64,000 bases of DNA from NCBI RefSeq assembly GCF_040112705.1, contig NZ_CP157804.1, positions 1,792,001 to 1,856,000 on the forward strand, written 5' to 3'. The notes beneath the pieces were generated by a model. The model had not been told where the DNA came from and did not search any database. It saw only the letters and a program-made list of their open reading frames with translations. How positions within the stretch are numbered: the first letter of the stretch is position 1; the number at the start of each line of letters is the position of its first letter. Positions 4,666-33,461 of this stretch are shown piece by piece. The translations under genes and the position numbers were made by a program. Source of the DNA: Flagellimonas sp. MMG031. GTDB lineage: Bacteria; Bacteroidota; Bacteroidia; Flavobacteriales; Flavobacteriaceae.

Positions 4666-5583
4666 ATGAAACAAATTTTTATTATTTCCTTTTCCTTGTT
4701 ATTTATGGCAGTACAGATTCAGGCTCAAAAAAACGTTCAAGAACGTTTAGGATATCCCTCCGATGCCAAGTTATTGATTGTACATGCCGATGATCTTGGG
4801 GTCATACATACCGCAAACCAAGCCACGTTCAAAGCTTTCAATGAAGGTTCGGTAAACAGTGCCAGCATTATGGTGCCAACCCCATGGTTGTCCGAGGTGG
4901 CCGAATATGCCAAAGCCAACCCAGACCATGATATGGGTATTCACTTAACGTTGACCAGTGAGTGGAATTATTTAAGATGGGGACCGGTGGCATCAAAATC
5001 AGAGGTGTCCAGCTTGTTGGACGACAACGGCTATTTCTATCCCGATTGTGCCCAACTATGGGAAAATGCCAAGATTGAGGAAGTGGAGATCGAGTTAAGG
5101 GCCCAAATAGATAAAGCCATTGCCATGGGTATCCAACCTACCCACTTGGATAGTCACATGGGGTGCTTGTTTTCCACAGACCCGAGATACTACGAGCTTT
5201 ATGTGAATCTGGCCAAGGAGTATGGTATTCCGGCTATGATCAATCATCAAATCGAAGAACTGGGAGGCAAGGAAGGTACCAAACAGCCCGTTCTCGTCAA
5301 TCGAATATTTGGAGCAGGGCCCGCTGATTTTGATACGGACATGGCCGCTTATTATGCCAATACCCTCCGTAATATGGAACCGGGTGTCCATGTGATGATC
5401 ATACACTGCGGATTTGACAATTTGGAAAGTCAGGGCATGTCTGTGGAGCATCCCTATTGGGGTGCTAGATGGCGCCAACAGGACTATAATTTCTTTACCA
5501 GTGAAGCATGTGCCCAAATCTTGGAAGAAGAAAACATCTATTTGGTGACTTGGAAAGAAATTGGAGCGTTATTAAAAAAATAA
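4666..5583 (+). CDS. Exported YdjC/ChbG-family carbohydrate deacetylase
   Basis: A metal-dependent deacetylase-like protein of 305 residues. A signal peptide ends near residue 20 (IQAQ). LLIVHADDLGV carries the metal-binding Asp of the ChbG/HpnK family, and DMGIHLTLTSEW and THLDSHMGC carry the conserved His residues. E. coli ChbG removes acetyl groups from chitooligosaccharides in the cytosol; this copy appears to be periplasmic, which differs. It sits 4 bases after the UMF1 transporter. It could act on N-acetylated sugars arriving through the outer membrane; the substrate is unproven. Transcription probably ends at the hairpin 20 bases downstream. Confidence 0.88.
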   Translation: MKQIFIISFSLLFMAVQIQAQKNVQERLGYPSDAKLLIVHADDLGVIHTANQATFKAFNEGSVNSASIMVPTPWLSEVAEYAKANPDHDMGIHLTLTSEWNYLRWGPVASKSEVSSLLDDNGYFYPDCAQLWENAKIEEVEIELRAQIDKAIAMGIQPTHLDSHMGCLFSTDPRYYELYVNLAKEYGIPAMINHQIEELGGKEGTKQPVLVNRIFGAGPADFDTDMAAYYANTLRNMEPGVHVMIIHCGFDNLESQGMSVEHPYWGARWRQQDYNFFTSEACAQILEEENIYLVTWKEIGALLKK

Positions 5584-6413: not shown

Positions 6414-7514
6414 TTAATTTTGATAAAATGAGATACCCCCGTAGTCGCTGGTAATGCTGACCCTGTTTCCAGAATTGGCCTTGCCATAGAACCCACGATA
6501 ATATTTTTCGGTCGATTTTTCCTTACTGATGTTGATTTCAAAATCTTCCTTGCCACTTACACCGGCATATTCGGTACTGATCTCAAAATCGAAGTGGTAA
6601 GCCGGGTCATAACCAATCTTGATGCCCGTGTAATCTGAACCAATCTCAATATTTCCGGCATCGGCGGCCATGCGATCAATTTTAATGGACCCATAGTCGC
6701 TGGTGATGGCTACGTTCCCGTGTACATTGCCCAGTTTTACACCGATATAGTCCCCGTTGCCTTCCACATTGTTTACGTTCCGTACGTCGATGGAACCATA
6801 ATCACTGCCGTATTGCAGGTTGTCCATTTCTTCCACGACTGCATTGGTATAGTCCGCCTTAATGTTGAGGTTGCCTGCCTTTTCGATGGTAAAACCGGAA
6901 TAATCCGCAATGATCTCGGCACTGTTGATGTAATCGAAGGTGGATCGGGAAGTGTAGTCGAAACGTAGTTCATTGTTGCGACCACGTAGCTCTCCAATTT
7001 CCAATTTACCGTAGTCACAGCTGATCTTGGCGTGGCCATCGATACGGTCCAAAATAATGCTACCATAATCGTTGCTGAGGTTAACACTGTTCTTTACGGG
7101 CAATTTTATGGTATAGTTGACCTGTACGCTGACTTTTTTGCGTCCACCCCAGCTCCAGCCCCAGCTATTGCTACGATCTCCGAACCGAGTAGTGGCAGAG
7201 ACCATATCGGGACTATTTTCAAACTCCACGTCAATTTCGTCCAATCGTTCCTGCACCCGGTCCTCGTCGTTGCCGTTGGTTTTGATGTGCACCTCAATTT
7301 CCACGCGGTTCTCGTTCCACGAGGTAAGGTTAACATTCCCATAGCTGTTTTTTACTTTAAAGAGCGCATCCGGATTAACGTTATATTCTTTTTTAATGGT
7401 CTTTTCCTTGGTGTACCTGCCGTTCAGCTTATCGCTGTCCACATGGCCCATAGCCACAAGGGGAATCAAAGCCAAGGCGAAAAAGAGGGATTTAAATGGT
7501 AAAACTTTCATCAT
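6414..7514 (-). CDS. Exported DUF4097-like beta-helix protein with DYG/DYT repeats
   Basis: 366 residues, signal peptide ending near residue 24 (LVAMGHV). From about residue 145 to the end, a D-Y-G/T/S/I motif returns about every 20 residues: NDYGSI, CDYGKL, FDYTSR, ADYSGF, ADYTNA, SDYGSI, GDYIGV, SDYGSI, SDYTGI, TEYAGV, SDYGGI. Each rung should place an Asp-Tyr pair at the same turn of a beta-solenoid. A long N-terminal segment (residues 30-140) precedes the repeats. The first 23 bases overlap the end of the anti-sigma gene, which suggests translational coupling. It is probably a surface or periplasmic protein made when the ECF factor is active; its molecular role is unknown. Confidence 0.85.
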   Translation of the reverse strand: MMKVLPFKSLFFALALIPLVAMGHVDSDKLNGRYTKEKTIKKEYNVNPDALFKVKNSYGNVNLTSWNENRVEIEVHIKTNGNDEDRVQERLDEIDVEFENSPDMVSATTRFGDRSNSWGWSWGGRKKVSVQVNYTIKLPVKNSVNLSNDYGSIILDRIDGHAKISCDYGKLEIGELRGRNNELRFDYTSRSTFDYINSAEIIADYSGFTIEKAGNLNIKADYTNAVVEEMDNLQYGSDYGSIDVRNVNNVEGNGDYIGVKLGNVHGNVAITSDYGSIKIDRMAADAGNIEIGSDYTGIKIGYDPAYHFDFEISTEYAGVSGKEDFEINISKEKSTEKYYRGFYGKANSGNRVSITSDYGGISFYQN

Positions 7515-24261: not shown

Positions 24262-24843
24262 TTACCCGTGCATGGTTTCCTTTTTTCCGAGATTTTTCAT
24301 CAGTTGGGCCTCGTACTCCAAAAGGTCGTTCCACTTTTGGTCCACTTCCTCCTTTTTTCCGTATTTGCGGGCAAACTTAAGGAACATAGTGTAGTGGTTG
24401 GCCTCACTGATCATGAGGTTGCGGTAGAATTCCGATAGCTCTTGGTCATCAATTTCCTCGGAAAGCAACCTAAAACGTTCGCAGCTCCGGGCCTCTATCA
24501 ACGCAGCGTAAAGTAATTTGTGTACCAAATGGGTCTCTCGGCTACCACCCTTGGGGAAAAATTTCATCAGTTCAATGACGTATTCATCCTTACGTTCTCG
24601 ACCCAAAACCCATCCACGTTGCATAATTTTATCGTGAACCATATTGAAGTGTCCCATTTCCTCACGTGCCAATGCAGTCATTTCCTTTACTAGTTCCGAT
24701 TTTTCAGGAAACCCGATAATCAACGAAATAGCTGTGCTAGCAGCTTTTTGCTCGCAATACGCGTGGTCCGTCAAGATCTCCTCAATGTTCTTTTCAACAA
24801 TATTTACCCATCTTGGGTCGGTAGGTAATTTTAAGCCTAACAT
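24262..24843 (-). CDS. miaE: tRNA-(ms2)io6A hydroxylase
   Basis: Di-iron monooxygenase that hydroxylates the isopentenyl side chain of modified A37 in tRNA. 193 residues, a ferritin-like helical bundle. Ligand residues fall as expected: DHAYCEQKAAS, REEMGHFNMVHDKI, ARSCERFRLL and EANHYTMFLKFA. It stands alone, divergent from the ebo cluster. Members occur in Bacteroidota without the classical enteric gene order, so the assignment rests on sequence only. Confidence 0.92.
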   Translation of the reverse strand: MLGLKLPTDPRWVNIVEKNIEEILTDHAYCEQKAASTAISLIIGFPEKSELVKEMTALAREEMGHFNMVHDKIMQRGWVLGRERKDEYVIELMKFFPKGGSRETHLVHKLLYAALIEARSCERFRLLSEEIDDQELSEFYRNLMISEANHYTMFLKFARKYGKKEEVDQKWNDLLEYEAQLMKNLGKKETMHG

Positions 24844-24904
24844 GGTTATCTAATTTTGGGCAAAGATAATCTGATAGGATTAAATAAAATCGCTGAACGC
24901 TGGT

Positions 24905-24912
24905 TATATTTG
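24905..24912 (+). promoter_or_regulatory. Bacteroidota -7 promoter element for the ebo cluster
   Basis: TATATTTG matches TAnnTTTG exactly, 28 bases before the eboA ATG. No convincing -33 TTG at normal spacing. No other promoter-like break is seen before the end of the TMEM220 gene at 31691. Confidence 0.55.
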
Positions 24913-24940
24913 TAAGTCCAACACATTGCAGTCGGGACCT

Positions 24941-25786
24941 ATGACAAAAACCGCAAAGGAATATCTTTCCGATATCCTGATACTAAACTTGGAAAAAACA
25001 GAATTTGAATGGTTGATGGATGCCATAGCGCAGGTCGTTGATGCTAAAAGCAGAAAAGATCTGTATATGACCTATAGCCTATCTACATCAAAAATAAAGG
25101 ATGCCCCAATCCATGATTTTGGTGAGAAGGATTTCCAGTGGAGGAGCTATTTGGAACAGCAGAACGCCTCCACCCTGGAAATGTCACGAATTTTGCTCTT
25201 GTTATCTGTTTTGGAGTCAGATGAGGTTTTTTTAAAGCCCGTTCAGCAACTGATACAAATATCGGATAAGACCGAATTGGAAACTTTTTTGAAATACTTG
25301 GTTCTTTTACCGAAATCAGAGCATTTTAAATTTGCTGCGGTGGAAGCGCTACGTACCAATATCGCGACGGTGTTCAACGCCATTTCCCAACATAATCCCT
25401 ATCCCGCAAGGTATTTTACCAACGCGGAATGGAATCAAATGTATCTGAAAGCTGCATTTATGCAGCAGGATTTGAAGAAGATTCCAGACGTGGACAACAT
25501 GGCCAACAAAGATTTGACAAGAATCGTATCAGACTACGCCCATGAACGATGGGCAGCCTCACGGGATATTGATCCCATGTTCTGGAGACCGGTCTCCCCA
25601 TTTTTGGAAGGCGCTTTGATCGAGGATATGGAACGCTTGTTTCAAAGCGAAAATGAAAGGGAGCAAAAAGCGGCCACATTGGTCTGTTTTCATTCGGATA
25701 CCGAAGCGGGAAAAAAATTATTGAAAACACACAACACTCACTTAGAACAAGTAGAAAAAGGGGAGTTAACTTGGAAAAATTTGTAA
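24941..25786 (+). CDS. eboA: EboA family protein
   Basis: 281 residues, all-helical in appearance, no signal peptide, no catalytic motif. Conserved-looking parts are RYFTNAEWNQMYLKAAFM and DYAHERWAASRDIDPMFWR. Recognised as EboA by order and content of the genes that follow. The function of EboA is unknown; in cyanobacteria the cluster is needed to bring a scytonemin precursor to the periplasm. The ATG at 24941 is chosen over a TTG 15 bases upstream, which would add MQSGP. Confidence 0.85.
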   Translation: MTKTAKEYLSDILILNLEKTEFEWLMDAIAQVVDAKSRKDLYMTYSLSTSKIKDAPIHDFGEKDFQWRSYLEQQNASTLEMSRILLLLSVLESDEVFLKPVQQLIQISDKTELETFLKYLVLLPKSEHFKFAAVEALRTNIATVFNAISQHNPYPARYFTNAEWNQMYLKAAFMQQDLKKIPDVDNMANKDLTRIVSDYAHERWAASRDIDPMFWRPVSPFLEGALIEDMERLFQSENEREQKAATLVCFHSDTEAGKKLLKTHNTHLEQVEKGELTWKNL

Positions 25787-25790
25787 TAGC

Positions 25791-26699
25791 ATGGATGATA
25801 AATTAATGATCATAGACCCACACGTTCACATGACCTCCAGAACTACGGATGATTACGAGGCCATGGCGGCAGCTGGGGTAGTCGCGGTGATAGAACCTTC
25901 ATTTTGGTTGGGGCAACCCAGAACACAGGTAGGTTCTTTTCAAGACTATTTCAGCAGTTTAGTAGGGTGGGAACCTTTTAGGGCTTCTCAATTCGGAATC
26001 AAACATTATTGTACCATCGGGCTTAACTCCAAAGAGGCGAATAATGTACCCTTGGCCGAAGAGGTTATGGAATTATTGCCTTTATATCTGCACAAGGAAA
26101 ATGTGGTGGCCATTGGAGAAATCGGATATGACGACCAGACCGAGGCAGAGGATAGGTTCTTTCGGGAACAATTGGAGCTGGCCAAGGAATTCAATATGAT
26201 GGTTCAAGTACATACGCCCCATAGGGATAAAAAGGCAGGGACCATTAAGAGTATGGAAGTCTGTATAGAGCACGGGATTGACCCTGGAATGGTGGTCATC
26301 GACCATAATAATGAGGAAACGGTAAAGGAAGTTTTGGACCGCGGATTTATTGCCGCCTTTACCATATATCCAAAAACCAAAATGGGCAATCAGCGTATGG
26401 TGGAAGTCGTCAAAAAATTTGGAAGTACAAATATTATTGTGGACAGTTCTGCGGATTGGGGTGTTTCCGACCCGTTGGCGGTTCCCAAAACGGCCAACCT
26501 AATGCTGCAAAATGGCGTTTCCCGTGAAGATGTGGTAAAAACTTGCTACCAAAATGCACTGGACTTTTTTGGCAGGTCGGGAAAAATGAAAGCCGAACAT
26601 TGGTTGAACCCTGAAGCTATCGACCAACGGAAATTGTTTAATGATAATAGTGTCCTACGAGGGCAGGAACCCAAAGTAGAGGATAACAAAATCGTTTAA
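25791..26699 (+). CDS. eboB: EboB, TatD-like metal-dependent hydrolase
   Basis: 302 residues of the TatD/amidohydrolase superfamily. IIDPHVHM gives the first metal-binding HxH, GEIGYDDQ the bridging acid, VQVHTPHR and VVIDHNNEE the next His residues, and VDSSADWGVSDP the catalytic Asp. Sequence is distinct from DNA-processing TatD, and its place directly after eboA identifies it as the cluster hydrolase. The substrate is unknown. Starts 4 bases after eboA and overlaps eboC by one base. Confidence 0.9.
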   Translation: MDDKLMIIDPHVHMTSRTTDDYEAMAAAGVVAVIEPSFWLGQPRTQVGSFQDYFSSLVGWEPFRASQFGIKHYCTIGLNSKEANNVPLAEEVMELLPLYLHKENVVAIGEIGYDDQTEAEDRFFREQLELAKEFNMMVQVHTPHRDKKAGTIKSMEVCIEHGIDPGMVVIDHNNEETVKEVLDRGFIAAFTIYPKTKMGNQRMVEVVKKFGSTNIIVDSSADWGVSDPLAVPKTANLMLQNGVSREDVVKTCYQNALDFFGRSGKMKAEHWLNPEAIDQRKLFNDNSVLRGQEPKVEDNKIV

Positions 26700-27598
26700 T
26701 GAGTCCACGCTTAAAGGCATATCTCCAATTGTGTAGACCGGCCAATTTACCTACGGCAGCTGCCGATGTTTTGGCAGGAACCGCTATTTCTGGTCTGTTT
26801 GCAGTTGAGGGAGCTTTTCAATTGGCGGACATCGCAGTTTTACCTTTTTTGTTGCTGGTGATGGCTTCCGTTTTCCTGTACGCAGGCGGAGTGGTACTCA
26901 ATGATGTATTTGATATTGAAATCGATAGGGTGGAGCGACCTGAACGCCCTATTCCCAGCGGAGTAGTGCCTTTGGGAAAGGCAAGGTCTCTTGGTTTTGT
27001 CTTGCTTGCGGTCGGAATCGGACTTGCATTTTTCGTGGGTAAAACTACTGGCTTAATCGCTGTTTTTTTGGCATTGTCCATTTTGCTGTACGATAAATTT
27101 GCAAAGCATCATCCTATATTGGGACCATTGAATATGGGTGTTTGCAGAGGGCTCAACCTTTTAATGGGTATTTCGTTGTTGGGAACCTTTCAGTATTGGC
27201 CTTATGTGCTGCTTCCGGTTGTTTTCATCTTTGCGGTGACCATGATCAGTAGGGGTGAAGTACATGGCAAGAATAAAGGAAATATCCTGATGGCAGGATT
27301 GCTCTATGGAATGGTTATCACTGCTTTGGTTTACCTCCATTACACTTATGCCAAAAATGATTTTTGGTATGTATTGTTTTTGGTACTCTTCGGGCTAATG
27401 GTCTTCCGACCCTTGATCATCGCTTATAGGAACAATACCCCAAACCATATTAAAAATGCCGTAAAATCTGGCGTTTTGTCCATTGTATTGCTGGATGCCT
27501 CCCTGGCCGTAGCACATTCGAACCTTCTACTGGGGATTCTCATACTATTATTATTACCGTTGTCCATCTTTTTGGCCAAACAATTTGCAGTAACCTAG
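26699..27598 (+). CDS. eboC: EboC, UbiA-like prenyltransferase
   Basis: Polytopic membrane protein of 299 residues, about 8-9 hydrophobic segments. NDVFDIEIDRVERPERPIPS holds the first Asp-rich NDxxDxxxD motif of UbiA enzymes. The second Asp motif region (YDKFAKHHPILGPLNMGVCR) is weaker, with YDKFAKHH in place of the usual second DxxxD. Either a true prenyl transfer onto a metabolite or a role in the membrane step of the pathway is possible. The start codon overlaps the eboB stop (TAATG). Confidence 0.88.
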   Translation: MSPRLKAYLQLCRPANLPTAAADVLAGTAISGLFAVEGAFQLADIAVLPFLLLVMASVFLYAGGVVLNDVFDIEIDRVERPERPIPSGVVPLGKARSLGFVLLAVGIGLAFFVGKTTGLIAVFLALSILLYDKFAKHHPILGPLNMGVCRGLNLLMGISLLGTFQYWPYVLLPVVFIFAVTMISRGEVHGKNKGNILMAGLLYGMVITALVYLHYTYAKNDFWYVLFLVLFGLMVFRPLIIAYRNNTPNHIKNAVKSGVLSIVLLDASLAVAHSNLLLGILILLLLPLSIFLAKQFAVT

Positions 27599-27601
27599 TT
27601 T

Positions 27602-28768
27602 ATGAATACAAATTTACCTCCCATACGCCAGGCGTTTCAAGTAAGGTATGATTATCAATTGCTTTTTACCCAGCACCTGTTTGCCGTGGAGAACCCTTTG
27701 TTCAAAAATGTACTGTCGGAATATAGACCTAATGAGCCGATCAAATGTCTATTTATCGTCGATCAAGGGGTCATGGACTGTCACCCATTGTTGGAGACCC
27801 ATATCAAACAGTATTGCGAGCAGTACAAAAATCAAATACAGTACACGGAATTAGTTGTAGTGCCGGGAGGTGAGCAAAGTAAAAAGGACCAAACGAGTGT
27901 GGATAGGTGCCTTACCGCCATTAATGAGAATGCCATTTGCCGGCATTCCTTTGTGGTGGCCATAGGTGGCGGAGCCGTAGTAGATATGGTAGGTTATGCG
28001 GCTACTATCGCGCACCGAGGGGTGCAGCTCATTAGGGTACCCACTACCGTTTTGGCCCAGAACGATGCCGCTGTGGGGGTCAAGAACAGTGTGAACGCCT
28101 TTGAAAAGAAAAACTTTTTGGGCACGTTTTCCGTGCCCTACGCGATTATCAACGATCTGGAATTTTTAAAAACCCTGGAGCAAAGGGATTGGGTGGCCGG
28201 AATCGCAGAAGCCATTAAAGTGGCGTTGATCAAGGACAAGACATTTTTTGAATACATTGAAAACAATGCCCAGGCTTTGGCCAACAGGGATATGGAGGTC
28301 ATGGCCTATCTTATCCATCGCTGCGCCGAGCTGCACATGGAACATATTTCCAAAGGAGGAGACCCTTTCGAAAGTGGTTCGTCCAGACCCTTGGATTTTG
28401 GTCATTGGTCCGCCCATAAAATGGAATATATGACCGATTATCAACTTCGACACGGTGAGGCCGTTGCCTTGGGTATGGCCATAGATATGGTATATGCCAG
28501 TCTAATCGGGATTTTGGAAGACGATTTAGATCGAGTGTTGAACGTTATCAAAAAAGTGGGGTTCCAACTCGAAATGCCTTTTGAAAGCGATCAAGAGATC
28601 AAGGAAGTGCTCCATGGAATTGAAGAATTTAGGGAACATTTGGGTGGTAAGCTAACCATCCCCTTGATTCCCAAAATCGGAACAAAGACCGATGTACATC
28701 AAATTGACTACACCCTAATGGAACAGGCTATCCGAAGCTTTGTGCGCAAACCGGAAAGTTCCCTATGA
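27602..28768 (+). CDS. eboD: EboD, 3-dehydroquinate-synthase-like sugar phosphate cyclase
   Basis: 388 residues of the sugar phosphate cyclase superfamily. NAD binding: VVAIGGGAVVDMVGYAATIA. Metal ligands: GIAEAIKVALIKD (Glu), DFGHWSAHKMEY (His) and LRHGEAVALGMAID (His), all as in AroB. The substrate loop differs: DHQ synthases have VGGKTA-N, whereas this has VGVKNSVN, so the substrate may not be DAHP. It is about 30 residues longer than E. coli AroB, mostly at the N-terminus. Overlaps eboE by 4 bases (ATGA). Confidence 0.9.
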   Translation: MNTNLPPIRQAFQVRYDYQLLFTQHLFAVENPLFKNVLSEYRPNEPIKCLFIVDQGVMDCHPLLETHIKQYCEQYKNQIQYTELVVVPGGEQSKKDQTSVDRCLTAINENAICRHSFVVAIGGGAVVDMVGYAATIAHRGVQLIRVPTTVLAQNDAAVGVKNSVNAFEKKNFLGTFSVPYAIINDLEFLKTLEQRDWVAGIAEAIKVALIKDKTFFEYIENNAQALANRDMEVMAYLIHRCAELHMEHISKGGDPFESGSSRPLDFGHWSAHKMEYMTDYQLRHGEAVALGMAIDMVYASLIGILEDDLDRVLNVIKKVGFQLEMPFESDQEIKEVLHGIEEFREHLGGKLTIPLIPKIGTKTDVHQIDYTLMEQAIRSFVRKPESSL

Positions 28769-29955
28769 AAATCAATGAAAAATATCACCTTACCTATTGC
28801 ACCAATATTCATGCTGGTGGGAATTGGGAAGAAACATTTACAAGCTTAAAGGAAAATGTGCCCCAAATCAAGAGTGCTGTTTGTCCAGATAAACCCTTTG
28901 GATTGGGACTTCGTTTGGGAAACACTGCCGGTTTGGAACTCGACCAAGGGCAGCTCAAGGAATTTAAGGAATGGTTGGATAAGGAAGATTGCTACGTATT
29001 CACCATGAACGGTTTTCCCTATGGGAATTTTCATGGCGAACCCGTCAAGGATCAAGTGCATGTTCCGGATTGGACCACACAGGAACGTTTGGAGTATACC
29101 CTGAGGTTGTTCAAACAATTGAATGTTTTGGCGCCCGAAGGTATGGAATGTGGTATTTCCACTTCCCCGGTTTCCTACAAACATTGGTTCGATTCGGAAG
29201 AGGATAAGCGAAAAGCATTGACCAGTGGGGCCAAAAATATGGTTCGCGTAGCTGTTGAGCTGTATCAAATGGAGAAAGCTTCGGGCAGGTATATGCATTT
29301 GGATGTGGAGCCCGAACCCGATGGTTTTTTGGAAAATACGCAAGAGGTGCTCGATTTTTATGCGGAATACCTAGTCCCCACGGCTATTAAAGCTTTTGGG
29401 GAATACCAATTCAATCCCGAAAAGATAACCGAGTTGCTCAAGCGTTATATCACGATATGTTATGACGTTTGTCATTTCGCATTGGCTTATGAAGCCCCAA
29501 ATTGGACCTTTGAAAAGTTGAAGGAATCTGATATCAAGATTGGTAAGATTCAGGTGAGTGCCGCCCTAAAAATTATATACGACCAAGACAAAGCGGATGA
29601 CATTTGGAACACCTTGGCAAAGTTCAATGAACCGGTTTATCTACATCAAGTAACTCAAATGGTCGATGGCAAGGTGAAAACATACAACGATTTACCCGTA
29701 ATTTTGGAAAAGAGGGCACCATTTACCGAATTGCGCTCGCACTTTCATGTGCCCATCTTTTTAAAGGATTACGGTTTGCTCCAATCCACACAAGACCAGA
29801 TTGAGAGCGTATTGGCTTATTTGAAAAGTCATTTGGTGAGCCAACATATCGAGGTGGAAACCTACACTTGGGATGTTTTACCCAAGGATCTTAAAATGCC
29901 GATTACAGAATCCATAGCGCGGGAACTGAATTGGATGAAATCAAGATTGGAATGA
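28765..29955 (+). CDS. eboE: EboE, TIM-barrel sugar-isomerase-like protein
   Basis: 396 residues resembling xylose-isomerase-like TIM barrels. Candidate metal/catalytic residues sit at barrel-strand ends: YLTYCTNIHAG-like start (HLTYCTNIHAGG), MHLDVEPEPDG, ICYDVCHFALAYE and VYLHQVTQ. Databases call the family metabolite traffic protein EboE. The function is inferred only from the cluster. It begins inside the eboD stop and ends inside the eboF start, so the three genes are translationally chained. Confidence 0.88.
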   Translation: MKINEKYHLTYCTNIHAGGNWEETFTSLKENVPQIKSAVCPDKPFGLGLRLGNTAGLELDQGQLKEFKEWLDKEDCYVFTMNGFPYGNFHGEPVKDQVHVPDWTTQERLEYTLRLFKQLNVLAPEGMECGISTSPVSYKHWFDSEEDKRKALTSGAKNMVRVAVELYQMEKASGRYMHLDVEPEPDGFLENTQEVLDFYAEYLVPTAIKAFGEYQFNPEKITELLKRYITICYDVCHFALAYEAPNWTFEKLKESDIKIGKIQVSAALKIIYDQDKADDIWNTLAKFNEPVYLHQVTQMVDGKVKTYNDLPVILEKRAPFTELRSHFHVPIFLKDYGLLQSTQDQIESVLAYLKSHLVSQHIEVETYTWDVLPKDLKMPITESIARELNWMKSRLE

Positions 29956-31325
29956 AGAAGACCGTAGTGATCAATATTGTAGGATTGACCCATAGATTGA
30001 TAGGGGAGCATACCCCTTTCATCAAATCATTCTTGGAAAAAGGCAAAAGCAGTGTGGTAAAGCCCGTATTGCCCGCCGTGACCTGCTCTGCCCAAAGTAC
30101 CTATCTCACGGGAAAATGGCCATCCGAACACGGTATTGTTGGGAATGGATGGTTTTTTAAGGATGAACTGGAGGTGAAGTTTTGGAGACAGGGAAACCCT
30201 TTGGTGCAATCCCCTAAAATTTGGGACGAACTAAAGACATTGGATGCCAATTTTACCTGTGCCAATATGTTTTGGTGGTACAATATGTACAGCACAGTTG
30301 ATTTTAGCGCCACCCCGCGCCCCAATTACTTGGCGGATGGCAGAAAGATTCCGGATATTTATACCTATCCGGCCGAACTGAGAGACAAGCTTCAAGCCAA
30401 ATTGGGTACGTTTCCCTTGTTCAAGTTCTGGGGACCCAAAACCTCCATTGCATCGAGTAGATGGATTGCCGATGCTACTATGGAAATGGACCGTGAGCAT
30501 GACCCCACCCTGACCTTGGTGTATCTGCCCCACTTGGATTACAATACGCAACGCCATGGAATCAACTTTGATATTCTACAAAAGGATTTAAGGGAGATTG
30601 ATGCCGTTGTCAAGGATTTGGTGCAGTATTACGAGGTAAAGTCTGCCCATGTGGTGCTATTGTCCGAGTATGGTATCACCGATGTGTCCAATCCCATCCA
30701 TATTAACCGTTACCTCAGGAAAAAGGGGTATTTGGGTATTCGGATGGAAAGGGGATTGGAACTCTTGGATGCCGGTGCGAGTAAAGCCTTTGCCGTTGCC
30801 GACCATCAAGTGGCCCATGTGTATGCCAAGGAAGCTGACGATTATGAAGCATTGCACTCCTATTTAAAGACCATACCCGGTGTGGAAAAAGTCATTCCGA
30901 AAAATGAACTGGAGTCACATCAGCTTAACCATAATCGGGCCGGGGATTTCGTCCTTGTTGCGGATAAGGATAGTTGGTTTACCTATTATTTTTGGGAGGA
31001 TGATGCCGTAGCACCTGATTATGCCCGAATGGTAGATATCCATAAAAAGCCTGGCTACGACCCTGTTGAAATGTTCACCGACCCTTCTGACCCGTTTGTG
31101 ATGCCCAAAGTGATCTGGAAACTTCTTAAAAAGAAATTGGGCTTTAGGACGGTGATGGATGTGATTCCCCTAAAAGCTGAGTTGGTCAAAGGCTCGCATG
31201 GCAGAATCCCAGAGGATAAACAAGATTGGCCTATCTTGGCTACCAATGCCCAAGACCATTTGCCCAAAGCGGAATTATTGGCCACCGATGTTTATGAAGT
31301 ACTGAAAAACCACATAACCCAATAA
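29952..31325 (+). CDS. eboF: EboF, alkaline-phosphatase-superfamily phosphodiesterase/pyrophosphatase
   Basis: 457 residues related to nucleotide pyrophosphatase/phosphodiesterases. AVTCSAQSTYLTGKWPSEHG carries the nucleophile (Thr/Ser) region, YLPHLDYNTQRHG the His/Asp pair and KAFAVADHQVAHV another ligand set. Where most relatives have SDHG, this one reads LLSEYGITDVS, so the Asp-His pair is Glu-Tyr; one metal site may be altered. No signal peptide, so it is probably cytosolic. The ATG at 29952 overlaps the eboE stop; a longer frame from 29931 is less likely. Confidence 0.88.
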   Translation: MKKTVVINIVGLTHRLIGEHTPFIKSFLEKGKSSVVKPVLPAVTCSAQSTYLTGKWPSEHGIVGNGWFFKDELEVKFWRQGNPLVQSPKIWDELKTLDANFTCANMFWWYNMYSTVDFSATPRPNYLADGRKIPDIYTYPAELRDKLQAKLGTFPLFKFWGPKTSIASSRWIADATMEMDREHDPTLTLVYLPHLDYNTQRHGINFDILQKDLREIDAVVKDLVQYYEVKSAHVVLLSEYGITDVSNPIHINRYLRKKGYLGIRMERGLELLDAGASKAFAVADHQVAHVYAKEADDYEALHSYLKTIPGVEKVIPKNELESHQLNHNRAGDFVLVADKDSWFTYYFWEDDAVAPDYARMVDIHKKPGYDPVEMFTDPSDPFVMPKVIWKLLKKKLGFRTVMDVIPLKAELVKGSHGRIPEDKQDWPILATNAQDHLPKAELLATDVYEVLKNHITQ

Positions 31326-31328
31326 ATA

Positions 31329-31691
31329 ATGGAAACCTTTTTTAAAATTTTTGCAGTTGTCTTCACGCTGTTGTTCGGATACGCGATAGCTGTTCAGTTC
31401 AATGACCCTGACGCTGTAAAATGGATTTTAATTTATTTTGCAGCAGCACTGGCCTCAGTACTTTTCTTGTTGAAAAAGCTGAAGTCCGGTATCTATTTTT
31501 TTCTTTCGGGATTCTTCATCATGCTTTTTATTCTATATTGGCCGGAAACCTGGGAAGGAGTTCAGTTGGACCATGGGATGAAAACCGTGAATATCGAGGA
31601 GGGCCGTGAGTCCTTGGGGTCTTTGATAGCGGGAATTGTGATGTTGGTCTATGGCTTTAGGACCCGTTTTATCGGCCGATCAAAAATCTAG
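31329..31691 (+). CDS. TMEM220-family membrane protein, last gene of the ebo unit
   Basis: 120 residues with four hydrophobic segments (about 5-22, 31-47, 52-70 and 95-112). AVQFNDPDAVKWILIY matches the QxNDPDPxxW signature of the transmembrane protein 220 family, which also occurs in animals; function unknown. It starts 3 bases after the eboF stop and no terminator lies between, so it should be transcribed with ebo. Its last 12 bases overlap the end of convergent dnaX. An accessory role in ebo metabolite movement is a testable idea. Confidence 0.85.
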   Translation: METFFKIFAVVFTLLFGYAIAVQFNDPDAVKWILIYFAAALASVLFLLKKLKSGIYFFLSGFFIMLFILYWPETWEGVQLDHGMKTVNIEEGRESLGSLIAGIVMLVYGFRTRFIGRSKI

Positions 31692-33461
31692 GTCAAACTC
31701 CTTCCGGAGCAAATCCAAGTTCGGGTTTTTCTCCCGTAACTTTTCATACTTTTCTTGAGGGGTAAAGGCAAACTTTTTGGCTACCTCTTCGTTTACCGTA
31801 ATATGTAACGAGATGGAGTAGTTGTTCAGTTTTTGCTTAAGGTAATCCAGCATCAAACTTTGTTCCCGCTCTATCTCCTTTTTCATGGTGCCATTGGGAA
31901 GTTCTATCCAAATGGTATTTTCATTCTTGAGTTTGGGCACATCGGTCTGTAAATTGCTTGCCAGTATTTTTCTGCCTTGTTGCTCCAATTGGTTGACAAA
32001 ATCATCCCAATGTTCTTGCATTTCCTTTTCCTCAAAAGTATCCTTGGGAAGGTCCTTTTCGTCAACACTGGGTGCTTTGGTGTTTTGATGCTCTTTTTTG
32101 ACCTTGATGCTGGATAGGGATAGACCCGAGACCCTTTTTTCAGCACCTTTTATGGCAATCTTTTTAGGTTGATAGCTTTTTTCGGGTTCGCTGACCAGTT
32201 CTTTTTCAACTTCGTTTTCATCTGGCGCATCATCCACCTTGGGCACCATTTCTTGGGTTGATGCCATGGTCGCCTGTTCTATTGGTGTCTTTTTTGAAGG
32301 AGTTTCAGGTGAATGGGTTTCAGGGACTTTAATACCGTTTGAAACGATTTTTGTCTCCTTGAAATGTGAAGCAGGTATTAAGAAATTAGAGTTTTTTTTT
32401 TCTCCATCGAAAGTGATGGACGCTAGCTTCATGAGTGTGAGTTCTACCAGCAGACGTTGATTTTTACTGGTCTTGTACTGCAAATCGCACTCGTTGGCCA
32501 TATCTAGAGCTTTCAACAAAAACGCTTTGGATGCCTTTTTGGATTGCTCTTGATATTGACCTACCACATCTTCACCTACTTCCAATAAACTTAAGGTATC
32601 CTTGTGCTGGCACACCATCAAATCCCTGAAATGGGAGGCAAGGCCGGTTATAAAGTGATGACCGTCAAAACCAAGGGACAAGGTTTTATTGAACAGGACC
32701 AAAAGTTCGGGAATGTTGTTGTCCAAGATCAAATCTGTGGCGGAAAAATAAATGTCGTAATCCAGCACATTCAGGTTTTCCGTAACGGCCTTTCTGGTGA
32801 GTTCTTTCCCAGAAAAACTTACTACGCGATCAAAAATGGAAAGGGCATCGCGCATAGCACCGTCCGCTTTTTGCGCTATGATGTGCAGTGCACTTTCTTC
32901 CGCATCAATGCCTTGTTGTTCCGCAATGTACTTTAAATATTCAGTGGCATCCTTAACGGTGATACGCTTAAAGTCAAAAATTTGACAACGCGAAAGGATG
33001 GTTGGAATGATCTTGTGCTTTTCCGTGGTCGCCAAAATAAAAATGGCATGCTTTGGTGGCTCCTCCAAGGTCTTCAAAAAAGCATTGAAGGCCGATTGGG
33101 AGAGCATGTGCACCTCGTCGATGATGTACACTTTGTATTTGCCCGTCTGTGGAGGAATACGCACCTGATCTATAAGGCTTCGGATATCATCCACAGAATT
33201 ATTAGAAGCTGCATCGAGCTCAAAAATATTGAAGGCGAAATCCTCATCTTCCCTTTCGGTACCATCTTGATTTATTTTTTTGGCCAAGATTCGGGCACAA
33301 GTTGTTTTACCAACGCCCCTTGGGCCACAAAATAAAAGAGCCTGTGCCAAATGATTGTTTTCAATGGCATTCATTAAGGTGTTGGTTATGGACTGTTGGC
33401 CCACAACATCCTTAAACGTCTGGGGTCTATATTTTCTAGCCGATACAATAAATGGTTCCAA
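31680..33461 (-). CDS. dnaX: DNA polymerase III subunit gamma/tau
   Basis: Clamp-loader ATPase of 593 residues. GPRGVGKTT (46-54) is Walker A, YIIDEVHMLS Walker B, LEEPPKHAIFILATTEKHKI and LSRCQIFDFKRI the sensor/arginine-finger region, and VELTLMKLASITF ends the collar domain III. Beyond residue about 360 comes a low-complexity linker rich in Thr, Glu and Lys, then a tau-specific C-terminal domain. A run of ten A (codons 354-357, bases 32392-32401) lies exactly at the domain III/linker border; slippage there would make a gamma-like product (see findings). It is divergent from rnpB. Confidence 0.95.
   Translation of the reverse strand: MEPFIVSARKYRPQTFKDVVGQQSITNTLMNAIENNHLAQALLFCGPRGVGKTTCARILAKKINQDGTEREDEDFAFNIFELDAASNNSVDDIRSLIDQVRIPPQTGKYKVYIIDEVHMLSQSAFNAFLKTLEEPPKHAIFILATTEKHKIIPTILSRCQIFDFKRITVKDATEYLKYIAEQQGIDAEESALHIIAQKADGAMRDALSIFDRVVSFSGKELTRKAVTENLNVLDYDIYFSATDLILDNNIPELLVLFNKTLSLGFDGHHFITGLASHFRDLMVCQHKDTLSLLEVGEDVVGQYQEQSKKASKAFLLKALDMANECDLQYKTSKNQRLLVELTLMKLASITFDGEKKNSNFLIPASHFKETKIVSNGIKVPETHSPETPSKKTPIEQATMASTQEMVPKVDDAPDENEVEKELVSEPEKSYQPKKIAIKGAEKRVSGLSLSSIKVKKEHQNTKAPSVDEKDLPKDTFEEKEMQEHWDDFVNQLEQQGRKILASNLQTDVPKLKNENTIWIELPNGTMKKEIEREQSLMLDYLKQKLNNYSISLHITVNEEVAKKFAFTPQEKYEKLREKNPNLDLLRKEFDLDF
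32392..32401 (-). other. A10 slippery tract in dnaX
   Basis: Ten consecutive A on the coding strand (GAA AAA AAA AAC). One extra A, or a -1 shift, gives stop TAA after four more codons (358-residue product). Loss of one A, or a +1 shift, gives TAA after codon 360. Both alternative frames stop at once, right after domain III. Confidence 0.6.

Follow-up and report, generated by a model that had tools for sequence, protein, structure and literature searches.

What is a small gene of the TMEM220 membrane protein family doing directly behind an ebo gene cluster, and is it a chance neighbour or a part of the system? The question is raised by a 64,000-nucleotide stretch of DNA (the window) from Flagellimonas sp. 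MMG031, covering positions 1,792,001 to 1,856,000 of contig NZ_CP157804.1. The genome is a single contig of 3.76 Mb with one copy of TMEM220, and of its 17 closest relatives the proteins that carry names are from Muricauda, Allomuricauda and Flagellimonas. An ebo operon with the gene order ABCDEF has been described for several phyla, Bacteroidota among them, in a study whose available text treats flanking genes as lying outside the operon (Yurchenko et al. 2016, PMC5133447).

Six intact ebo genes with no internal stops occupy window positions 24941-31325 on one strand and in the published order A-B-C-D-E-F, neighbours overlapping by up to 4 bases or lying up to 4 bases apart, and only 3 bp separate eboF from TMEM220. 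Coordinates and family scores (Table 1) agree with the original prediction of a complete, canonically ordered and tightly spaced eboABCDEF. The eboD product also scores 123 bits with DHQ_synthase (cut-off 24), and the EboA subfamily model NF035937 gives 153 bits on the eboA product against a cut-off of 320. The same prediction had counted TMEM220 as a seventh gene, and in Bacteroidota this is sustained by the co-occurrence of the two, by their varied linkage, and by a relocated block that contains both. Judged from genome sequences, TMEM220 is a real seventh component of ebo in Bacteroidota, and it is very probably a functional partner of the system there.

Every genome in a phylum, a family and a genus sample was screened for both EboE (NF035939) and TMEM220 (PF15071). 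Among the 345 genomes of the phylum sample, 28 have EboE, 44 have TMEM220 (43 over the cut-off) and 21 have both, where 3.6 are expected; TMEM220 is present in 21 of the 28 EboE-positive genomes versus 23 of the 317 EboE-negative ones. The family sample (249 genomes, 235 genera) contains 46 genomes with EboE, 62 with TMEM220 (61 over the cut-off) and 43 with both, where 11.5 are expected (43/46 EboE-positive versus 19/203 EboE-negative). The corresponding numbers for the 71 genomes of the genus sample are 20, 23 and 20, with neither gene in 48 (20/20 versus 3/51). The association holds when linked genomes are removed, with TMEM220 in 14/21 EboE-positive versus 23/317 negative genomes of the phylum sample (p 2e-10) and in 5/8 versus 19/203 of the family sample (p 6e-4), genomes being treated as independent in both. 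In the same phylum set, Bac_rhodopsin, a patchily distributed control family, is found in 10/28 EboE-positive and 44/317 EboE-negative genomes; lineage or habitat explains part of the association between ebo and TMEM220, and far less than is seen. The dependence is one-sided, in that EboE without TMEM220 is rarer than the converse in all three samples (genus 0 versus 3, family 3 versus 19, phylum 7 versus 23).

A further, named set was assembled with a profile built from 11 EboE proteins, taking the best 80 of at least 584 confirmed loci, 49 from Bacteroidota and 31 from other phyla. TMEM220 is present in 44 of these 49 ebo-positive Bacteroidota genomes, at least three of which also belong to the phylum sample. 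A wider profile (A2) was run on 42 genomes, comprising 4 positive controls, 15 ebo-positive Bacteroidota negative by Pfam, and 23 genomes from other phyla. It matched all 4 controls and left 13 of the 15 Pfam-negative Bacteroidota without a match at E <= 0.1; the weak matches were in G119 (E 0.009, two in-frame stops) and G211 (E 0.07). The stretch in G119 (C287:40236-40448, locus L275) is TMEM220-like, lies in an ebo-positive genome that has no intact TMEM220, and is possibly a pseudogene.

Linkage between the two takes many forms. Among the 46 EboE-positive genomes of the family sample, TMEM220 lies directly after eboF in 32, before eboA in five and 4.6 kb downstream in one, and is unlinked in five and absent in three. 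In the named set it is linked in 12 of the 49 Bacteroidota loci (10-kb stretches), in several positions and orientations. It follows eboF on the same strand after 6 bp in Maribacter and 1 bp in Arenibacter, both with miaE and dnaX as flanks like the window, and after 219 bp in a Cyclobacteriaceae metagenome-assembled genome (MAG). On the opposite strand it follows eboF in Hymenobacter (25 bp), in another Cyclobacteriaceae MAG (7 bp) and in two Adhaeribacter (1.2 and 2.2 kb). It precedes eboA on the same strand by no more than about 140 bp in Salegentibacter, a Cytophagaceae MAG, Mucilaginibacter and Flagellimonas algicola, and on the opposite strand by 519 bp in Chitinophaga; in three further Chitinophaga it lies, by coordinates, about 12-16 kb upstream of eboE. 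G328 has a rearranged series that begins with it, TMEM220-E-F-A-B-x-C. Whether TMEM220 adjoins eboF beyond one lineage had been set as a test in advance, and Hymenobacter and the two Cyclobacteriaceae MAGs provide such cases, with positions before eboA in further families; the tight same-strand form with a gap of a few bases is seen only in Flavobacteriaceae. Linked cases fall into 11 separate groups on an EboE tree and into several on a TMEM220 tree, both being single-gene FastTree reconstructions, midpoint-rooted and of uneven support; on the former, locus L030 is labelled as 'after eboF' despite two intervening genes, and some 'far' labels mean that the stretch ended. One locus (L029, genome G572) has two TMEM220 genes (4719-4976 and 7071-7463) upstream of a single ebo cluster, with a gene of the formate/nitrite transporter family between them.

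The unit can also move as a whole. In 17 congeners with TMEM220 behind eboF, the block lies beside miaE in 13 and elsewhere in four (G694, G703, G717 and G695), where the next genes have 719 and 208 codons. The alignment of the relocated block with the window spans the promoter, eboA-F and TMEM220, and includes nothing from miaE or dnaX, which in G694 (L265) lie 54 bp apart. EboE proteins of the relocated blocks cluster with that of the window, indicating a move within the genus, in either direction. The relocated block outlines what evolution can treat as a complete unit.

The locus between miaE and dnaX has several states. Of 70 miaE loci found, 30 were compared, and miaE is next to dnaX in 23 (one with a 60-codon frame between), to eboA in four, to TMEM220 alone in two and to another gene in one. 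TMEM220 without ebo lies between miaE and dnaX at nine loci in the family, including those of G673 and G675, and in G723 TMEM220 without ebo adjoins a 1116-codon gene similar in kind to those found after eboF in G662 and G711. At one locus (L039, G364) a lone eboE, likely a remnant, sits between miaE and dnaX, with the other ebo genes and TMEM220 not within the stretch retrieved.

Table 1. Features of the ebo-TMEM220 unit, its flanks and related loci (window coordinates unless a locus is given)
Feature	Coordinates	Strand	Evidence and remarks
Block found at another locus in four congeners	24847-31670 (start 24847-24862, end 31669-31670)	+	blastn of L255, L256, L257 and L258 against the window
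TATATTTG, putative -7 box of the ebo operon, Bacteroidota type (TAnnTTTG)	24905-24912	+	exact match; conserved upstream of eboA
eboA	24941-25786	+	EboA domain NF035938, 148 bits, cut-off 50
eboB, TatD-like metal-dependent hydrolase	25791-26699	+	PF01026 (TatD_DNase), 70 bits, cut-off 27; DPHVH motif; 4-base gap after eboA
eboC, UbiA-like prenyltransferase	26699-27598	+	NF035940, 377 bits, cut-off 250; NDVFDIEID motif; overlaps eboB by 1
eboD, sugar phosphate cyclase superfamily	27602-28768	+	PF01761 (DHQ_synthase) and PF24621; 3-base gap after eboC
eboE, xylose-isomerase-like TIM barrel	28765-29955	+	NF035939, 474 bits, cut-off 250; overlaps eboD by 4
eboF, phosphodiesterase / nucleotide pyrophosphatase family	29952-31325	+	PF01663 (Phosphodiest), 210 bits, cut-off 23; ATG at 29952 overlaps eboE stop by 4
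TMEM220-family gene, seventh of the unit, 120 codons	31329-31691	+	PF15071, 72 bits, cut-off 27; co-occurrence, varied linkage, block relocation
miaE-like flanking gene, outside the unit, divergent	24262-24843	-	PF06175; left behind in G694 (L265) when the block is elsewhere
dnaX flanking gene, outside the unit, convergent	31680-33461	-	PRK14971; 12-bp overlap with TMEM220; 54 bp from miaE in G694 (L265)
ThuA-GSDH-PKD proteins	L216:3395-6754, L112:13120-16470, L132:13837-17001, L031:873-4028, L025:12780-16001, L259:12080-15430		

Outside Bacteroidota the partnership is not seen. The 31 ebo-positive genomes of other phyla in the named set (23 Cyanobacteria, two Herpetosiphon, one Thermomicrobiales, two Acidobacteria, Chthonomonas, Abditibacterium and a record titled Tatlockia) gave no match to TMEM220, and they include Nostoc species, N. 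punctiforme itself not having been searched. The A2 profile, with its positive controls, likewise found none at E <= 0.1 in the 23 non-Bacteroidota ebo-positive genomes to which it was applied. TMEM220 is a companion of ebo in Bacteroidota and not a universal part of it, and the proposal that ebo trafficking generally relies on it as a missing membrane partner is not supported. In an unsystematic look by eye for a stand-in for TMEM220 among a few cyanobacterial ebo neighbours, we noted one protein that begins like a catalase and another, of 100 codons, that begins with a signal-like stretch.

The TMEM220 protein has a set of strongly conserved residues. In 43 diverse members N25, D26, W32, Y36, E90, R93, E94 and G97 are invariant and Q23, D28, F16 and A20 nearly so, with similar conservation values across 101 sequences. 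An AlphaFold2 model (predicted local distance difference test 93, predicted template modelling score 0.85) has helices at 2-23, 29-47, 53-69 and 86-114, in keeping with the four spans originally assigned to it, and places residues 23-28 and 90-97 at helix ends on the same side. Charge distribution favours termini inside in 98 of the 101 sequences, which would put the near-invariant residues on the periplasmic side; that the conserved side faces the periplasm is likely. Some ten near-invariant residues in a protein of 120 suggest ligand binding or catalysis over a passive anchor. VKOR-type quinone-binding four-helix proteins were considered as a likeness, which was to be recognized by similarity above the helical-bundle background. 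VIA-align of the model gave Z scores of helical-bundle level, the best (8.9) with an engineered ROP bundle, and a PDB sequence search gave one chance-level match (E 0.26); neither was used.

The explanation that we lean towards is that TMEM220, the seventh ebo component, is a membrane partner facing the periplasm, where it would handle or use what ebo makes. In this view a prenylated small molecule would be built by the cytosolic EboA, B, D, E and F together with EboC in the membrane; EboD would supply a cyclitol-like ring, EboC would carry out prenylation, and EboB, E and F would make modifications. TMEM220 would be a four-helix inner-membrane protein with Q23, N25, D26, D28, W32, Y36, E90, R93, E94 and G97 on its periplasmic side. 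UbiA-type active sites generally face the cytoplasm, and if this applies to EboC, TMEM220 would act after prenyl transfer, encountering the product on the periplasmic side and perhaps serving redox enzymes that are exported. A more specific version, that TMEM220 receives, releases or uses the product at that face, perhaps on behalf of exported oxidoreductases, is offered tentatively and has less than an even chance of being right. The small-molecule pathway of the original prediction is in substance a restatement of what Yurchenko et al. 2016 (PMC5133447) had proposed, including, in the text available, a cyclitol-like ring product for EboD.

Several observations weigh against this explanation. 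Genomes are related and not independent, so the co-occurrence p-values overstate the significance, and Bac_rhodopsin is itself enriched 2.3-fold with EboE. Seven of the 28 EboE-positive genomes of the phylum sample and five of the 49 named ones have no TMEM220, and five of those seven belong to one family (f23), in which ebo must function without TMEM220 or differ; TMEM220 is also found without ebo. At the level of the protein, a simple hydropathy cut detects only the first three helices and the fourth fails, and a Foldseek search with the model, 62 matches being returned up to E 10, gave none at E <= 0.001 and hence no fold relative. For the proposed role itself, the grounds are topology and context.

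The genes around TMEM220 copies that lie away from ebo were also compared. Several such loci encode Gfo/Idh/MocA oxidoreductases and xylose-isomerase-like TIM barrels, both with twin-arginine-like starts (a motif found by script), together with TonB receptors and 3-keto-disaccharide hydrolases, as well as large proteins (about 1100 residues) in which ThuA, glucose/sorbosone dehydrogenase (GSDH) and PKD domains are combined, with cytochrome c in most of those scanned and a lipobox-like start in several. The ThuA-GSDH-PKD protein (about 1050-1120 residues; Table 1) recurs both in or near ebo clusters and near ebo-less TMEM220; proteins of the ThuA-GSDH type are found within ebo or close to it in Arenibacter (separating eboA from eboB), Flagellimonas and loci L112, L132, L025 and L031. 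A first count found ThuA, GSDH or 3-keto-hydrolase genes at 17/54 TMEM220 loci away from ebo, 16/74 ebo loci and 2/40 control regions, with locally trained profiles that have no Pfam cut-offs, families chosen after some of the counted loci had been viewed, and one genome counted twice (L224 and L259). The control regions were hand-picked at round positions in related genomes, and no regions were corrected for kinship. With discovery loci and same-genus repeats removed, TMEM220 away from ebo retains 15/47 (p 0.001; 11/38 without look-alikes, p 0.005), and the figure near ebo is 8/66, an excess that is not significant (p 0.19). A p-value for five families taken together was computed with 6 of the 40 control regions where 5 is correct, which makes it slightly too large. 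No excess is seen at the miaE-dnaX locus, either with ebo (4/43, counting L037, which has neither flank) or with TMEM220 alone (0/9), and such genes are found at none of the 31 ebo loci of other phyla. There is fair evidence for a sugar-redox excess near TMEM220 away from ebo, and no more than a hint of a link to ebo itself.

Two neighbourhoods of this kind may be noted separately. In Salegentibacter (L191:418-6043) TMEM220, a 3-keto-disaccharide hydrolase, a cytochrome c protein and a second TMEM220 precede eboABCDEF. TMEM220 genes of a second sequence group, without ebo (L072, L073, L075 and L079), have as neighbours MocA and TIM-barrel enzymes of the twin-arginine type, along with a TonB receptor about 940 residues long.

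A bolder idea, which we regard as improbable, is that the ebo product is a prenylated, membrane-resident redox carrier or cofactor for periplasmic-side enzymes, and that TMEM220 is its docking protein in Bacteroidota, coupling exported sugar oxidoreductases to the membrane. If it were true, the partners would be the ThuA-GSDH-cytochrome c lipoproteins, the Tat-type Gfo/Idh/MocA and TIM-barrel enzymes, and the secreted 3-keto-disaccharide hydrolases. Cyanobacteria, in which ebo supports the oxidation of the scytonemin monomer in the periplasm, would then offer a parallel, and export would be a single result of a wider role of ebo in supporting oxidation there.

Other accounts of TMEM220 have to be weighed against that of a partner handling the product. 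One is self-protection, in which ebo makes a bioactive compound against which TMEM220 guards the membrane of the producer, copies without ebo being retained immunity. The one-sided dependence would fit, as would the persistence of TMEM220 where ebo is missing in G673, G675 and G723, and a product with antimicrobial or protective action is suggested in the available text of Yurchenko et al. 2016 (PMC5133447); but none of the 31 ebo-positive genomes of other phyla has TMEM220, and immunity leaves the sugar-redox genes near ebo-less TMEM220 unexplained, so we consider it unlikely. That TMEM220 takes part in a flippase-like step moving an ebo-linked metabolite across the inner membrane, which is the original trafficking proposal confined to Bacteroidota, would suit a small membrane protein, but it is distinctly unlikely given that export is reported in Cyanobacteria, where the 23 ebo-positive genomes searched gave no TMEM220, and that in the model the invariant polar residues lie at one face with none deep in a helix. 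Shared lineage and habitat plus chance proximity, with no functional tie, could draw on the enrichment of the unrelated Bac_rhodopsin and on the nine ebo-less TMEM220 genes between miaE and dnaX, which would allow the spot after eboF to stem from one event, but this is improbable because the enrichment of TMEM220 is much larger and holds when unlinked, the varied arrangements lie on separate branches, and the relocated block takes TMEM220 and neither flank.

The sequence features that bear on a joint transcript are gene spacings of -4 to 4 bp and one conserved upstream box. The 3-bp gap leaves no space for a promoter directly ahead of TMEM220. The TAnnTTTG box reported ahead of eboA is an exact match, and TATATTTG or TATCTTTG stands upstream of eboA in all nine congener loci inspected, with differing adjacent bases, and in the relocated copies L255, L256 and L258 (the sequence inspected of L257 ends before the box). 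The pattern is itself common, occurring 74 times in the window where shuffled sequence averages 57, and a single box alone is therefore weak evidence. No -33 TTG was seen by eye at the usual spacing from TATATTTG. A match inside eboF, TATTTTTG, lies 342 bp upstream of TMEM220 in the window and is present in four of six relatives checked, and may provide an internal start for TMEM220. On the other strand, TATCTTTG at 24861-24868, 36 bp from the ebo box, is a possible -7 box of miaE.

A membrane-embedded seventh component with a predicted periplasmic conserved face points to where the ebo product may act in Bacteroidota. The TMEM220 family, shared by humans, gains a bacterial setting with a genetic partner, and because TMEM220 usually accompanies ebo in Bacteroidota and can move with it, there is a concrete handle on the roles of both. 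In humans, TMEM220 knock-down disturbs the Golgi and glycoprotein secretion (PMC6979480); the likeness is of the same Pfam family and by name only, and the available text of that work covers no bacteria.

Among ebo systems, the closest cases differ in instructive ways. The Nostoc punctiforme cluster, which serves export of the scytonemin monomer to the periplasm – metabolite movement having been shown only in Nostoc – has homologous eboA, B, C, E and F with eboD separate, and the available text does not mention TMEM220 (Klicki et al. 2018, PMC6282210). In vitro, 8-hydroxyquinoline-2-carboxylic acid is farnesylated by EboC (Ubi-297), known from Maribacter, Zobellia and Algoriphagus (PMC9235831); this is an EboC orthologue in the ebo cluster of marine Flavobacteria, and eboF and TMEM220 go unmentioned in the text available. 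Algoriphagus machipongonensis has a TMEM220 (P0100). A term search found no TMEM220 in the main text of PMC5133447, PMC6282210, PMC9235831 or PMC6092422, and among the open-access papers listed, a scope that leaves aside part of the TMEM220 literature, subscription papers and supplements, none reports the pairing. The operon described in the available text of PMC5133447 has the same six families in the same order, and that of the window carries in addition TMEM220 directly behind eboF. The ebo genes of Leptospira are reported in that study to derive from Bacteroidota. The same account includes a variant in which eboG replaces eboA. It too is a phylum-dependent change of gene content, but one that exchanges a member of the core, where the window's operon gains a membrane gene.

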